Shown piece after piece: positions 30,149 to 39,908 of a stretch of 39,908 nucleotides of DNA. This stretch comes from Rhodopseudomonas infernalis (GTDB lineage Bacteria > Pseudomonadota > Alphaproteobacteria > Rhizobiales > Xanthobacteraceae). The stretch covers positions 1 to 39,908 of the forward strand of contig NZ_JAJNAL010000044.1 in assembly GCF_022271405.1 (NCBI RefSeq), read 5' to 3'. Each line of letters begins with the position of its first letter. Position 1 is the stretch's first letter. The translations under genes were made by a program, and so were the position numbers. A model generated the notes under the pieces. The model made no database searches. It saw only the letters and a program-made list of their open reading frames with translations, and was not told the origin of the DNA.

Positions 30149-30223
30149 TGGTGGGCGCGACAGGGATCGAACCTGTGACCCCCTCGATGTCAACGAGGTG
30201 CTCTCCCGCTGAGCTACGCGCCC
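30149..30223 (-). tRNA. tRNA-Val (GAC anticodon)
   Basis: On the minus strand the gene starts GGGCGCGTAGCTCAGCGGGA and ends GGTTCGATCCCTGTCGCGCC followed by A and an encoded CCA. The acceptor stem GGGCGCG/CGCGCCC pairs fully. The anticodon arm CCTCG-TTGACAT-CGAGG presents GAC, which reads GUC and GUU valine codons. Length 75 nt including CCA. Confidence 0.97.
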
Positions 30224-35202: not shown

Positions 35203-36591
35203 ATGACGACACGAGGCCACAGGCTGACGCGCATCGCCGCAGGCGCACTCCTTGGAGCCGTATTGCTGCCGGCCGCAGCATGGGCGCAGAACCCGTTCGA
35301 CGTGTTCAATCTGTTCGGCGGAACCAACAAGGCGACCGCTTCGACCACGCAGCCCGCGAACATCACCACGCAGGCTCCATCGGGCAGCGGCAGCGCGCCG
35401 GTCTGGAGCGGCGAGGACGGCGCCTCCGGCCATCCGTTGATGACTTCGCAGGCGATCCGGCAATCCGCCGCCAATTTCGACGCCTGCGTCGCCGGCTTCT
35501 GGCCCGAGGCCGCGCGCCGCGGCATCTCGCGCGAGAGCTTCGAGCGCTACACCGCGGGCCTGTCGCCCGATCTGCGGCTGATGGACCTGATGGATTCGCA
35601 GCCGGAATTCACCAAGGCGATCTGGGACTATCTCGACATCCTGGTGAACGACAACCGGATGGCGCGCGGCCGCGAGATCCTGGCGCAGTACAAGCCGCAA
35701 TTCGACGCCGCCGAGCGCGCCTACGGCGTCGACCGCTACATCATCGCGTCGATCTGGGGCATCGAAAGCAACTACTCGACCCAGATGGGCGACCGCTATG
35801 TGGTGAACTCGACCGCGACGCTGGCCTGCGTCGGCCGCCGCCAAGCGTATTTCAAGGACGAATTCCTCACCGCGCTGGAGATCCTGCACCGCGGCGATCT
35901 GCGCCCCGAACAGCTGCGCGGCTCGTGGGCCGGCGCGTTCGGCCCGACGCAATTCATGCCGACCGCGTTCAAGCGCTTCGCCGTCGACGCCGACGGCGAT
36001 GGCCGCCGCGATGTCGTCGACAACCCCGCCGACCTGATCGCCTCGACGGCCAACAACCTCAAGAAGGACGGCTGGCAGAGCGGCCAGACCTGGGGCTACG
36101 AAGTGGTGATGCCGCAGGGCTTCGACTACATGAAGGCCGACCGCAAGCAGATGCTGACGCTGGCACAATGGCAACAGCTCGGCGTCAAGCGCCCGAACGG
36201 CCAGAGCTTCCCGCGCGGCTCCGACAAGGCCTATCTGCTGGCACCGGCAGGCTCGGAAGGCCCCGGCTTCCTGATGTTGAACAACTTCCGCACTATCATG
36301 AAGTACAACCCGGCCGAAGCCTATGCGCTGGCCATTGGCCACTTCGCCGACCGCCTTCGCGGCGGCGCGCCCTTCGTCCAACCCTGGCCCCGCCACGAAC
36401 GCGTCCTGTCCCGCAGCGAACGTCTCGAACTGCAACAACTCCTCGCCCAACGCGGCTACTACCGCGGCACCCCCGACGGCCAATTCGGCAGCATGACAAG
36501 AGAAGCGCTACGCAACTTCCAGGCCTCTATCGGAGCACCGGCGGACGGGTTTGCGACCGGGGATATGCTGGAGAGGCTTAGAGGAAGGTAG
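35203..36591 (+). CDS. Lytic murein transglycosylase, MltB type, with peptidoglycan-binding domain
   Basis: 462 residues. Signal peptide to about residue 28 (LLPAAAWAQ), a low-complexity linker, the SLT domain (about 85-390) with the catalytic Glu in ASIWGIESNYSTQMG, GAFGPTQFMPTAFKRFAVD and KAYLLAPAGSEGPGFLMLNN, and a C-terminal PG_binding_1 domain (about 400-460, LQQLLAQRGYYRGTPDGQFG). It cleaves the glycan strands of peptidoglycan in the periplasm. It is the last gene of GC-rich native sequence before the AT-rich cassette; its stop is 60 bp before the left inverted repeat. Confidence 0.93.
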   Translation: MTTRGHRLTRIAAGALLGAVLLPAAAWAQNPFDVFNLFGGTNKATASTTQPANITTQAPSGSGSAPVWSGEDGASGHPLMTSQAIRQSAANFDACVAGFWPEAARRGISRESFERYTAGLSPDLRLMDLMDSQPEFTKAIWDYLDILVNDNRMARGREILAQYKPQFDAAERAYGVDRYIIASIWGIESNYSTQMGDRYVVNSTATLACVGRRQAYFKDEFLTALEILHRGDLRPEQLRGSWAGAFGPTQFMPTAFKRFAVDADGDGRRDVVDNPADLIASTANNLKKDGWQSGQTWGYEVVMPQGFDYMKADRKQMLTLAQWQQLGVKRPNGQSFPRGSDKAYLLAPAGSEGPGFLMLNNFRTIMKYNPAEAYALAIGHFADRLRGGAPFVQPWPRHERVLSRSERLELQQLLAQRGYYRGTPDGQFGSMTREALRNFQASIGAPADGFATGDMLERLRGR

Positions 36592-36650
36592 GGGTTGCAA
36601 AATCACGCAACCCAAACGAGAGTTTCACTAGATTTAAGGCTCATAAATTG

Positions 36651-36670
36651 ATCATAACTACGAATTATGG
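36651..36670 (+). repeat. Left copy of 20-bp inverted repeat; possible recombinase crossover site
   Basis: ATCATAACTACGAATTATGG. The identical sequence in inverted orientation is at 38902-38921. Within it CATAA and TTATG are mutually inverted arms around the 7-bp asymmetric core CTACGAA. The repeat ends with ATGG, the start of the membrane protein gene. Arms extended to 11 bp on each side (ATTGATCATAA / TTATGGGAAAC) resemble the E. coli dif arms in 7 and 8 positions. Confidence 0.85.
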
Positions 36671-37683
36671 GAAACTTCAGCAGCTACGCTGTTATCGCCG
36701 GGATTGAGCAGATTCTCCTGCTCTATACGATAGCTGTTGCGGGACTACTCGGCATCTTATCATTCCAACTATATCGAATTCTGCAGGCGCAGGATCTGCA
36801 CTTATCAAGGGGAATGTCGAGCAATTTTCCGCGACAAGCACTGATTGTCGTCAAGGGAGCGATCTTTTGGATATTTGGCTACAAAGGAGAAGATCGAGAG
36901 AAGACCAGCTTTAACGAGCTAAATCTAGAATGGGTCGAACGCAACTGGCCATCCATTGTAGTTCGACTAATTCCAATCTATGGCCTGTACATTCTGGCAT
37001 TGGTAGTCTGGACTCGACCCGTCTATCTTGACGATGGGTCCGTTCATATATTTCGATATTCAACCAACTTGAACCAGCTGTTCTTTCTCTTTGTTCTCTA
37101 CGTTTCATCTAACGTCGTGTTTGATCTTCTGTCTCTGCGCTTCACGCTCTCTTGTCTTCTGCAAGCATTAGAGACGAAGAGATATATTGCACTGCTGCTT
37201 AAGAACATATTCGTTGCAATTCTTTTGTTCTTCGGTGCCCAGACCGCCTCCTGCATGTTGTGGATCTATAAAAGGCAAGATCCGAATTTTCCGAAACTAG
37301 AAGGAAATTTCTTGCAGCAGTTTGCCGAAATCACAACTTGGCCGTATGCGTTTGTTACGGGCCCCGGATCGACCGAGATCAATTCGCTCCTATTTCCGGG
37401 GCAGCTGCTTATCACCGGAACCGTATTCATACCAACAACATTACTCATTCTTGCGCTGATTGTTTTTTCTTCATTTTTGAAGGCAACAGAATTCACAAAG
37501 AAATTTCTGCTATCAAGGAAATGGGACTCCCTGTGTCGAATTCTTGTACGAGTTCGATTAGTTGGATTGCTTGAGCCGCCAGAGAAGGTGCGAAGCTTTG
37601 GCTATTGCAATTTAGCGTTTGTTGCGTTTCTCGACCTTTTGATCGTATCGATCGTCAGCGCGGTTGTTAGCCACATGGTGTAG
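36667..37683 (+). CDS. Unknown multi-pass membrane protein
   Basis: 338 residues, no family recognised. I see about six to seven hydrophobic segments, e.g. LLLYTIAVAGLLGILSFQLY (about 18-37), LIPIYGLYILALVVW (about 102-116), LFFLFVLYVSSNVVFDLLSL, IFVAILLFFGAQTASCMLW, LLITGTVFIPTTLLILALIV and AFVAFLDLLIVSIVSAVV at the C-terminus. The region is much more AT-rich than its neighbours (25 G+C in 37081-37140 against 41 in 35941-36000), a sign of transfer. Its start codon lies in the left inverted repeat, with no Shine-Dalgarno sequence. It converges with the methyltransferase gene and their ends overlap by 17 bp. Function cannot be assigned. Confidence 0.8.
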   Translation: MGNFSSYAVIAGIEQILLLYTIAVAGLLGILSFQLYRILQAQDLHLSRGMSSNFPRQALIVVKGAIFWIFGYKGEDREKTSFNELNLEWVERNWPSIVVRLIPIYGLYILALVVWTRPVYLDDGSVHIFRYSTNLNQLFFLFVLYVSSNVVFDLLSLRFTLSCLLQALETKRYIALLLKNIFVAILLFFGAQTASCMLWIYKRQDPNFPKLEGNFLQQFAEITTWPYAFVTGPGSTEINSLLFPGQLLITGTVFIPTTLLILALIVFSSFLKATEFTKKFLLSRKWDSLCRILVRVRLVGLLEPPEKVRSFGYCNLAFVAFLDLLIVSIVSAVVSHMV

Positions 37684-38905
37684 GTCTGACTACAATATGA
37701 ACATTGTAACAAGATCTGCCATGATCTCTGAATGCCAATCGACTGCCTTGTAAATAGAATTCCCAAGTTCTCAGTATTCTGTCAGCATCTCGCCGTGGGA
37801 GATTCGCCAATAAGATCTCTCGCAGAGAGGCCTCATTGCGATAGAGATTGTCCACCCACGCCGACAGGGTTCTAAAATAATTGTCGCTGCCGTGAATATA
37901 GATATCCATCACCTTTAGCGATGAGCGCTCAAAGTTATGGATCACCTCCGATAGTCGCGGAATATAGGCTCCCGGAAATACCTCTCGATCGATCCAACTG
38001 TTCGTAGACCCCGCTTCGGTTTTCACTATGCAGTGGATCAGCGCCAATCCGTTGTCAGCCAAGAGGCTCGATATTTTGGAGAAGTAGCTCTCAAGCCTCC
38101 CTCTGCCGACATGTTCGAGCATGCCAATTGAATAGATTCTGTCATACTTCGCATCGGGTTGAAATCGTTCAAAAGCGCTCGCAACAAAGCTAACCAGATC
38201 CGACGAAGAGCTCCTCTGCGCAAACTTGATCTGCTCATCCGAGATGCTTATCGCCGTGATTTTTGCTTTGGTCCGCCGGGATATCTCTTCGGCAACCTGG
38301 CCCCAACCGCACCCAATATCTAGAATGGTCTGCCCTTCTGCAAGCTGCAGTCGATCTATGACCTTTCTGATCTTGTTCTCCTGAGCGGCCTCAAGAGTCA
38401 TGACTGGAGACTCGAAGAACGCGCAGGTATACTCAAGATTTCGACCTAGGATAAGCCTCATGAATTCGGGCGACGTATTGTAGTGTTCCGCTATGCGGCG
38501 CCTGGCAACAATCGGGAACAGTCGGTATACGAATCCATCCCGCACAGGATTCCTATTGAACAATCGAAACCAAAGATGGAGCGGAGATTTGTTCTGCTTT
38601 ACTAACAGATCGAGAAAATCGAAGAGCCTGCCTGTTTCGCAGCACCAGAAGCCTCGGGTATAGTAGCTTGGAAGTCTGTAGTCTGGCCGCAGTAGAAGGC
38701 GGATTAGGCGCCAGAGTGTGGGCGGCGCTATGGTGCAAATATAGTCGCCTGAACCAACGTTGATGATCTGGTCTTCAAACTGAAGACCAATCATTCCGTC
38801 CTTTATGCTCGTGGCAAAGAGCGCCCGGACTATTCGTTTGGTCAGATGCGAAGGATACTTATACCCGTCCGCAGTCATAATTCGCTGGCAGGACAACTCT
38901 TCCAT
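37667..38905 (-). CDS. Cyclopropane-fatty-acyl-phospholipid synthase family methyltransferase
   Basis: 412 residues (E. coli Cfa has 382). The N-terminal lipid-binding-like part is present; the SAM site is ILDIGCGWGQVAEEI (about residue 193). Residues matching Cfa catalytic positions remain: the Cys in EYTCAFFESPVMTLEAAQ, the Glu in SIGMLEHVG, the His in LIHCIV, and the Tyr in TWEFYLQGSRLAFR. The likely reaction is methylene transfer from SAM to unsaturated phospholipid chains at the inner membrane; other CFA-family products are possible. AT-rich like its partner gene. Start ATG 38905 lies in the right inverted repeat; an internal ATG at 38878 is an alternative. Confidence 0.85.
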   Translation of the reverse strand: MEELSCQRIMTADGYKYPSHLTKRIVRALFATSIKDGMIGLQFEDQIINVGSGDYICTIAPPTLWRLIRLLLRPDYRLPSYYTRGFWCCETGRLFDFLDLLVKQNKSPLHLWFRLFNRNPVRDGFVYRLFPIVARRRIAEHYNTSPEFMRLILGRNLEYTCAFFESPVMTLEAAQENKIRKVIDRLQLAEGQTILDIGCGWGQVAEEISRRTKAKITAISISDEQIKFAQRSSSSDLVSFVASAFERFQPDAKYDRIYSIGMLEHVGRGRLESYFSKISSLLADNGLALIHCIVKTEAGSTNSWIDREVFPGAYIPRLSEVIHNFERSSLKVMDIYIHGSDNYFRTLSAWVDNLYRNEASLREILLANLPRRDADRILRTWEFYLQGSRLAFRDHGRSCYNVHIVVRPTPCG

Positions 38906-38921
38906 AATTCGTAGTTATGAT
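38902..38921 (-). repeat. Right copy of 20-bp inverted repeat; possible recombinase crossover site
   Basis: The minus strand reads ATCATAACTACGAATTATGG, identical to 36651-36670. The match stops at exactly 20 bp on both sides. It contains the ATGG of the methyltransferase gene. On the minus strand TTTCGA lies 18 bp before CATAAC, a weak promoter whose -10 part would be inside the repeat. Confidence 0.85.
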
Positions 38922-39060
38922 TGCTCGCGTCACTCTCTCGAAAGTGGCGAGCCTGACTGGACACAACCGCTAACCCTATTTCGCCTTTCGATTTTTGGAT
39001 GCTGGTTGTTTTCTTCATCCTCCTCCACAAACGCACCGCCCCGGTTGGGCGGAGCACGGA

Positions 39061-39908
39061 ATGCCCCTCACCAAATCGATTGCCACTTTCCTCGACCATT
39101 GTTCAGTCGAGCGGCAGTTATCGGACCATACGTTGCAGGCGTACGGGTATGATCTGGCGGACTTTGCGGCGTGGATCGGGACGCGGCGGCGGAAGGACAA
39201 GGGGTTCTGCGCCGACGCATCGATCGAGACCGACCACCTCCGCGCCTATCTTGAGCACATGACCGAGCGGAAGCTGTCGGCCGCGACGGTGCGGCGTCGG
39301 CTTGCCTGTTTGCGGTCGTTTTTCCGTTATCTGGAAGATCTTGACACCATGCCCAATCCGTTCGATGGCTGGCGGCTGAAGCTGCCGAAGCGGAAGCGGT
39401 TGCCGCGAACGTTGTCGCGGGACGAGACCACGCGGCTTTTGAAATCCACGCGCGCGCCAGGCGCGGCGCGGCATGCGACTCCGAACTCGTCCTCGCTATG
39501 CACCGAGATCAGGCTGATGATCGCGACCGGAATCCGGATCGGCGAATTGTGCAAGATCGCCAGCAGCGACGTCGCCAGCGACGGCGCGGCGATCCGGATC
39601 CACGGCAAGGGCTCGCGCGACCGGATGGTGTATGTGACGGATATCGGGTTACGCACCGAGCTCCGCAAGCTCGCGGCGCAACGCCAACGTCGGCTCGGCG
39701 GCGACGGGCCGTTGTTCCTCAATCGTAACGGCGAGAAGCTTCGGCCGCATTCGTTCCGCGCCAAGCTCCGCGACTTCGCGGGCCAAGCCGGCGTGCGCCG
39801 CCGCGTCACGCCGCATATGCTGCGGCATACCGCGGCGACACTGCTGATCGAGAGCGGCGTCGACATTCGCATCGTGCAGCGTCTACTCGGCCATTCCAGC
39901 ATCGCCAC
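39061..39908 (+). CDS. Tyrosine recombinase (Xer/integrase family), partial
   Basis: At least 282 codons, open to the window edge. The N-terminal SAM-like core-binding domain (about 5-95, DHTLQAYGYDLADFAAWIG) is followed by the catalytic domain with the first Arg in MIATGIRIGELCKI, Lys in IHGKGSRDR, His-x-x-Arg in TPHMLRHTAA and the second His in RLLGHSS. The nucleophilic Tyr should lie just beyond the edge. GGAG is 6 nt upstream of ATG 39061. GC-rich, unlike the neighbouring cassette. It may be a housekeeping Xer protein or a dedicated recombinase for the adjacent inverted repeat. Confidence 0.92.
   Translation, partial: MPLTKSIATFLDHCSVERQLSDHTLQAYGYDLADFAAWIGTRRRKDKGFCADASIETDHLRAYLEHMTERKLSAATVRRRLACLRSFFRYLEDLDTMPNPFDGWRLKLPKRKRLPRTLSRDETTRLLKSTRAPGAARHATPNSSSLCTEIRLMIATGIRIGELCKIASSDVASDGAAIRIHGKGSRDRMVYVTDIGLRTELRKLAAQRQRRLGGDGPLFLNRNGEKLRPHSFRAKLRDFAGQAGVRRRVTPHMLRHTAATLLIESGVDIRIVQRLLGHSSIA

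Follow-up and report, generated by a model that had tools for sequence, protein, structure and literature searches.

Inversion switches of the Mu G, P1 C and Hin type consist of an inverted segment carrying alternative genes, one of which is placed behind fixed flanking DNA; they are operated by serine recombinases and involve tail-fibre or flagellar genes. We have analyzed a stretch of 39,908 nt from Rhodopseudomonas infernalis, a bacterium of soil and water; it is one entire contig (NZ_JAJNAL010000044.1) that we refer to as the window, in which two convergent genes occupy a segment at positions 36651-38921 bounded by inverted 20-bp repeats and adjoined by a recombinase gene. We consider it very probable that this is a site-specific inversion switch in which the recombinase flips the segment and the proximal gene is expressed, and that the same chassis carries other cargoes elsewhere. 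Unlike the Mu and Hin-type systems, the locus has an Xer-like tyrosine enzyme, a start codon within each site and two mutually unrelated genes; the adjacent recombinase is of the phage-integrase family rather than a serine recombinase, and assignment to the Mu/Hin type was rejected on this basis.

The dif modules of Acinetobacter are similar in that inverted Xer-type sites with the structure ATAA-spacer-TTAT enclose genes, which constitute interchangeable modules; in the accessible part of PMC13141974 these pdif sites have 6-bp spacers, host XerC and XerD act on them and the modules reside on plasmids. The present locus differs in its 7-bp spacer, in the dedicated third recombinase beside the segment, in its two convergent genes and in its occurrence on chromosomes as well as some plasmids. 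It was not classed as a dif module, given the spacer of 7 rather than 6 bp and the third Xer-type gene adjoining a segment where no dedicated recombinase would be expected.

Three further kinds of system bear comparison. Promoter invertons (fim-type, RecV) have inverted repeats, a tyrosine recombinase and reversible ON/OFF states, but their promoter lies in the segment, whereas here two complete genes fill the segment almost entirely; with 20 of 23 segments (see below) filled by two open reading frames (ORFs), not a promoter inside and genes outside, this class was set aside. Inversion of hsdS genes with PsrA also combines a tyrosine recombinase with inverted genes, a culture being a mixture of states, but those systems shuffle specificity-subunit genes whereas at our locus whole unrelated genes would swap places. 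Integrons keep a tyrosine recombinase beside exchangeable cargo at a fixed site, but here inverted sites flank a cargo of two convergent genes, and an integron was rejected because the recombinase of the window, P0003, scores 88.5 bits on TIGR02249 against the integron-integrase cut-off of 265 (no attC search was made). What we do find are the traits of a tyrosine-recombinase inversion switch, namely identical inverted sites, an adjacent recombinase and both orientations in relatives (genomes G420, G272 and G429). Literature searches, which covered few subscription papers, showed no description of this system among the titles listed, and an earlier description elsewhere is possible; in the portion of PMC5903667 at hand, tail-fibre inversion in P1 and Mu is mentioned and an inversion survey lists none in 4 Alphaproteobacteria samples.

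The segment, its sites and the adjacent recombinase

The left recombination site (36651-36670, plus strand) is the 20-bp repeat ATCATAACTACGAATTATGG, with the dyad CATAA-CTACGAA-TTATG, and the right site (38902-38921, minus strand) is an identical copy in inverted orientation, with 0 mismatches. In both sites the ATG at the inner end of the dyad is the start codon of the bordering gene, a membrane protein gene on the left and a CMAS gene on the right. The window holds no further match to the repeat at ≤3 mismatches (100 dinucleotide shuffles likewise gave 0), the 5.5-Mb genome has exact copies at these two positions only, and none was found in 100 relatives searched at ≤2 mismatches. The two ORFs, 36667-37683 (+, 338 aa) and 37667-38905 (-, 412 aa), are convergent and their 3' ends overlap by 17 bp; the G+C content of the segment is 47%, as against 65% for the flanks. 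A preliminary description based on the window alone had proposed an invertible segment with perfect inverted repeats, each holding a start codon, and with the 17-bp overlap, all of which agrees with the repeat comparison and the ORF coordinates; the stretch common to both genes before the ATG is, however, 16 nt and not the 17 nt claimed, identity extending one base beyond the ATG. The same description had overlooked the adjacent recombinase and the interchangeable cargo.

The recombinase gene (39061..39908, plus strand) starts 139 bp outside the right repeat and is cut at codon 282 by the end of the contig at 39908, before the expected catalytic tyrosine codon. Its product P0003 matches PF00589 and PF02899 and scores against the XerC and XerD models far under their cut-offs. 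The motifs TGxR, GKG, HMLRH, GHSS and TTEIYTHV, which we take to have catalytic roles, are conserved in 15 of 15 aligned relatives, the window copy ending before the tyrosine. The genome encodes two other Xer-type genes, and in a tree of 35 proteins the segment-adjacent recombinases, a side that also takes in three plasmid relatives without a full site pair, split from the two chromosomal Xer paralogues with support of 100/98. Three contigs of the genus break off within the 3' portion of their recombinase gene (the window at 39908, L075 at the start of G015:C25 and L077 at the end of G007:C107); in the window and in G007 the cut falls almost at the same codon (282-283), as though assembly were blocked there. 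Between site and recombinase, 42 bp outside the former, lies the element CAACCGCTAACC (38964-38975, plus strand) of the form CAAYCRMTAACC; elements of this form occur in 7 of 7 right flanks in the genus and are a possible recombinase promoter or accessory protein site.

Cargo gene 1 (36667..37683, plus strand) encodes the 338-aa protein P0001 with 6 transmembrane-like segments. Pfam, NCBIfam and PADLOC give no match to it at E ≤ 1, it has no relatives in 100 related genomes or in the plasmid collection, and a single-sequence AlphaFold model is poor, with a mean predicted local distance difference test score (pLDDT) of 43. Cargo gene 2 (37667..38905, minus strand), recombinase-proximal in this assembly, encodes a 412-aa S-adenosylmethionine methyltransferase resembling cyclopropane fatty acid (CFA) synthases, with a CMAS domain (PF02353, 206.8 bits against a cut-off of 27) and residues 133-393 aligning to 7qos. 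Scores fall below the equivalog level (NF053839, 227.7 bits against 600; PRK11705, 189.6 against 400). The PF02353 score (207 bits) supports the 'CFA-type lipid methyltransferase' of the preliminary description at the level of the protein family.

Orientation of the segment in relatives

Both orientations are seen within the assembly of one relative. In G420, a single contig, bases 1-21500 repeat the last 21.5 kb with no mismatches and small indels only, which we read as an untrimmed circular overlap, and the two copies carry a 1,742-bp segment in precisely opposite orientations, with 0 mismatches. In G272, contig C83 consists of the left flank, the segment and then 59 nt of left flank reversed (59/59 identical), and the recombinase flank (C86, 37 nt) is attached to the segment end that the left flank also joins; in G429 one flank is joined to both segment ends (109/109 nt identical). 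These dual joins, together with G420, make an invertible two-gene segment the best reading of the locus, as proposed in the preliminary description. Nor do the relatives keep to one orientation otherwise, since two genomes of the genus, described below, carry the same pair opposite ways. The homologous pairs that we find carry the same kind of site, no systematic search outside such segments having been made; pairs lacking the repeat, like a single orientation in all related strains, had been named beforehand as evidence that would speak against inversion.

Fragmentation of draft assemblies points in the same direction. In G423, contig C25 (6,305 bp) is exactly the segment while C14 and C20 end exactly at the site, and in G373 both flank contigs terminate at the site. 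Over 22 drafts with a site, 10 break ≤100 bp inside one where 0.26 would be expected if contig ends were placed uniformly, with rounded contig numbers and distances entered by hand and the 100-bp limit chosen after the distances had been seen (largest 95). In an eleventh draft, G015, a contig ends at the outer border of the site and an N-gap lies 63 bp outside it, and for breaks ≤100 bp on either side the count is 11 drafts against 0.52 expected. The 22 drafts leave out G051 and G312, which have no visible site, and G002, G012, G385, G420, G433, G602, G653 and G681, which consist of one or two contigs or are otherwise complete.

Site rules, distribution and cargo

The 46 sites of 23 tabulated segments all have a 7-bp spacer with C as first and A as last base, the ATAA and TTAT arms being invariant by construction as the sites were picked by that pattern; the variant sites of G001, G423, G429 and pMRAD01 are not in the table. 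Scans allowing other spacer lengths (5-9 bp and 6-8 bp) returned 7 bp for every site, and later scans looked for 7-bp spacers only. Outside the family, genomes of the order often have GTTACGATAAC as the outer arm. In 23 of 23 segments the left spacer is the same as the right one, as expected of a tyrosine recombinase that needs spacer homology; for pdif sites, inversion requires identical or nearly identical spacers according to the available part of PMC13141974. At L168, L172 and L177 one recombinase lies between two invertible segments, and L173 has a second, unpaired site. In each of these three genomes with two segments the spacers of the two differ, and one enzyme may therefore run two independent switches.

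A profile search with the recombinase found 21 of 391 genomes of the family at E ≤ 1e-70, own genome included, and 19 of the 21 (18 of the 20 others) have at least one site near the recombinase; in G423 and G429 this is a variant site ~0.8 kb away. The close recombinase relative in G312 (L094) is preceded at ~35-45 bp by a ten-N assembly gap, at the place where a segment would be expected. The site pattern matches 18 of the 391 genomes and its reversed control 1, and not all matches are switches: those of G028, G260, G016 and G102 are single, G258 has two on different contigs, and G206 and G244 have one extra match each. In the order the recombinase occurs in 12 of 397 genomes, again counting our own; outside the family a site stands beside it in 11 of 11 and a full inverted pair in 9 of 11, and three order genomes have two segments, one on either side of the recombinase. 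Fourteen plasmid loci yielded a site pair in 4, three of these being one plasmid in three strains, and a single site in 1; on the Methylobacterium radiotolerans plasmid pMRAD01 the segment is annotated with D-Ala-D-Ala ligase and an ATP-binding protein, and on Phaeobacter inhibens pP66_d with an AAA ATPase and HAD hydrolase facing glycosyltransferases. Members of this switch family occur in several families of the window's order and also on plasmids of the Rhodobacterales.

Within the genus the gene upstream of the segment is kept in 16 of 16 genomes. The sequence CATAAYNNNNAATTATG is present exactly once per strand in 6 of the 16 and absent from the other 10, while a seventh genome, G001, has a variant site; the recombinase is present in the same seven, and two more genomes give short, weak matches only. 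Between upstream gene and recombinase, G012, G002, G015 and G007 have a convergent pair unrelated to that of the window, flanked by inverted dyad sites that contain start codons. In G002 and G015 the pair is the same, a methyltransferase and a GNAT-like membrane-anchored protein (49% and 58% identical; the GNAT-like label is given by eye, Pfam finding nothing), in opposite orientation. At one orthologous locus, five genomes of the genus hold four cargo classes between the same flanks. Of the nine genomes without recombinase, eight show no segment or recombinase between the upstream gene and the conserved genes beyond it, a dapA-like gene coming first in four and being missing in four; for the ninth, G008, the 2.5 kb fetched contained the upstream gene only. 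Recombinase and segment therefore seem to come and go as one element, the cargo varying within it.

The layout of the cargo recurs, 20 of the 23 segments being two convergent ORFs tail to tail with a gap of -143 to +18 nt (the exceptions are L172a, L172b and L177b). Four pairs recur across genera at 22-58% identity, namely methyltransferase/GNAT-like, pentapeptide/pyridoxal phosphate (PLP) aminotransferase, flavin adenine dinucleotide (FAD)/membrane and AAA/ATP-grasp; in a fifth class, membrane/CMAS (window and G206), the CMAS halves match by BLAST and the membrane proteins do not. Other cargo includes serine hydroxymethyltransferase (SHMT) with AAA-TPR, glycosyltransferase with AAA, spermidine-synthase-like and PAP2 proteins. 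Many pairs combine a soluble enzyme with a membrane or ATPase protein, and by a simple hydropathy count L173a, L174a, L176a, L177a, L177b and G385 fall outside the soluble-enzyme/membrane rule. In most segments the cargo is AT-rich relative to the flanks. The upstream segment of L172 contains a perfect 491-bp internal inverted duplication, its two convergent arms sharing sequence, and the downstream segment of L177 is 6.2 kb long with ~3.3 kb between its two end ORFs, so that its cargo may exceed two genes. An anti-phage system was considered and is not claimed: 10 of 13 proteins (12 cargo proteins and P0003) are unmatched in PADLOC, and three cargo methyltransferases match mad2 in its methyltransferase part only (66, 20 and 36 bits).

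Outside the switch, the upstream flanking gene of the window (35203..36591, plus strand), lytic-transglycosylase-like by eye, marks the insertion point and is directed at the segment, its stop lying 59 nt before the left site. Directly 3' of its stop codon is a hairpin, GGGTTGC-N8-GCAACCC (36592..36613, plus strand), without a T run. A terminator scan did not call it as a terminator; it may insulate the segment from read-through. A tRNA-Val (gac) gene lies at 30149-30223 on the minus strand of the window.

Proposed mechanism and its alternatives

In the mechanism that we propose, the Xer-like recombinase (39061 onward) would recombine the sites at 36651-36670 and 38902-38921 across their identical 7-bp spacer and flip the 2.27-kb segment. 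Since the start codon and leader of each gene belong to the site next to it, both reading frames would survive. The gene nearest the recombinase would be expressed and the other parked at the distal flank, so that a flip would select between the CFA-synthase-like methyltransferase and the membrane protein, and the same chassis would hold different two-gene cargoes in related bacteria. We infer that this recombinase acts, that switching occurs in this strain and that the gene in the proximal position is ON. As regards the last point, nine full segments are located downstream of their recombinase gene, and in eight of them the stop codon of that gene either falls within the site or precedes it by 1-6 nt (62 nt in G385); the proximal cargo gene therefore looks co-operonic with the recombinase. 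Where the segment lies upstream, as in the window, the proximal gene is divergent from the recombinase.

Several observations weigh against this mechanism. The window's own assembly has one orientation only, three Phaeobacter inhibens plasmids with a related segment agree in its orientation and have 0 differences over 12.8 kb, and 11 of the 22 drafts, the window's included, have no break at a site. Some of the relatives' genomes may be metagenome bins, in which case the two orientations could come from two strains and not from one culture. In G051 and G312 no site is found near the recombinase gene, only a contig end or N-gap, and in 9 of the 14 plasmid loci the patterns used detect no site. 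Because the window recombinase is truncated at the contig end, the catalytic tyrosine is visible in relatives only, and a search of both intergenic flanks for sigma-70-like promoters found none. Finally, orientation is not random-looking: over 25 segments (the 23 plus two plasmid examples), with enzyme and partner classes assigned by hand, the proximal gene is the enzyme in 15 loci, window included, and the partner in 5, while G420 and G272 show both orientations and L172a, L172b and L177b are unclassed. This enzyme-proximal bias may reflect growth conditions or selection.

A rather doubtful explanation, though the one that fares best among the alternatives, is that the repeats bound a mobile cassette and that the recombinase exchanges or moves two-gene modules, inversion being a by-product. 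The four cargo classes between the same flanks in five genomes, the AT-rich cargo and the absence of the whole element between the same neighbours in eight genomes of the genus would all fit, as does the resemblance to pdif sites, whose modules move according to the accessible part of PMC13141974. What the assemblies show, however, is inversion; no excised or relocated module was seen in them, and the spacer differences between many loci would limit exchange.

It is unlikely that the segment inverts but that both flanks drive transcription, in which case both genes would always be on and a flip would have little regulatory meaning or would change levels only. Read-through from the upstream gene is possible, given its direction and its stop 59 nt from the site, and the lack of an identified promoter on either side leaves room for such a picture. 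The operon arrangement of recombinase and segment in 8 of the 9 downstream segments argues otherwise, as does the hairpin after the upstream gene's stop (z = -2.75 for an 85-nt stretch), and an either/or choice would account for pairs staying invertible.

It is improbable as well that the inverted repeat is static and acts as a regulatory or leader sequence common to the two genes, with no inversion in this strain. The single orientation in the window assembly and the 16 nt before each ATG that are common to both genes speak for it, but inversion is seen in several relatives whose sites and recombinase are of the same kind, and the spacer rules fit recombination and not transcription. An assembly artefact or homologous recombination between the repeats is very improbable, for although draft assemblies can mis-join at repeats, the G420 segment is inverted exactly between its sites with 0 mismatches, independent drafts break at the same element, and the perfect repeats at such loci, ~15-40 bp, are short both for homologous recombination and for breaking an assembly.

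Returning to the inversion switch, we tentatively place it in a wider frame, that of a widespread modular either/or platform of the Alphaproteobacteria with a dedicated Xer-like recombinase, one or two invertible docking positions and exchangeable, functionally linked pairs, providing a genetically encoded division of labour at the population level. The pairs would often combine an enzyme (CFA synthase, SHMT, D-Ala-D-Ala ligase, PLP aminotransferase, methyltransferase or glycosyltransferase) with a membrane or AAA-type partner; a clonal culture would be genetically split into cells expressing one gene or the other, and the co-inherited partners would act at the population level. Recombinase and site together offer a simple sequence handle for finding further members, and such short sites with an internal start codon could serve as a recombination tool. 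The cargo differs from the usual surface antigens of inversion systems, and the recurring pairs pose the question of why two linked genes are kept if, with only the proximal gene ON, the cell uses one at a time.

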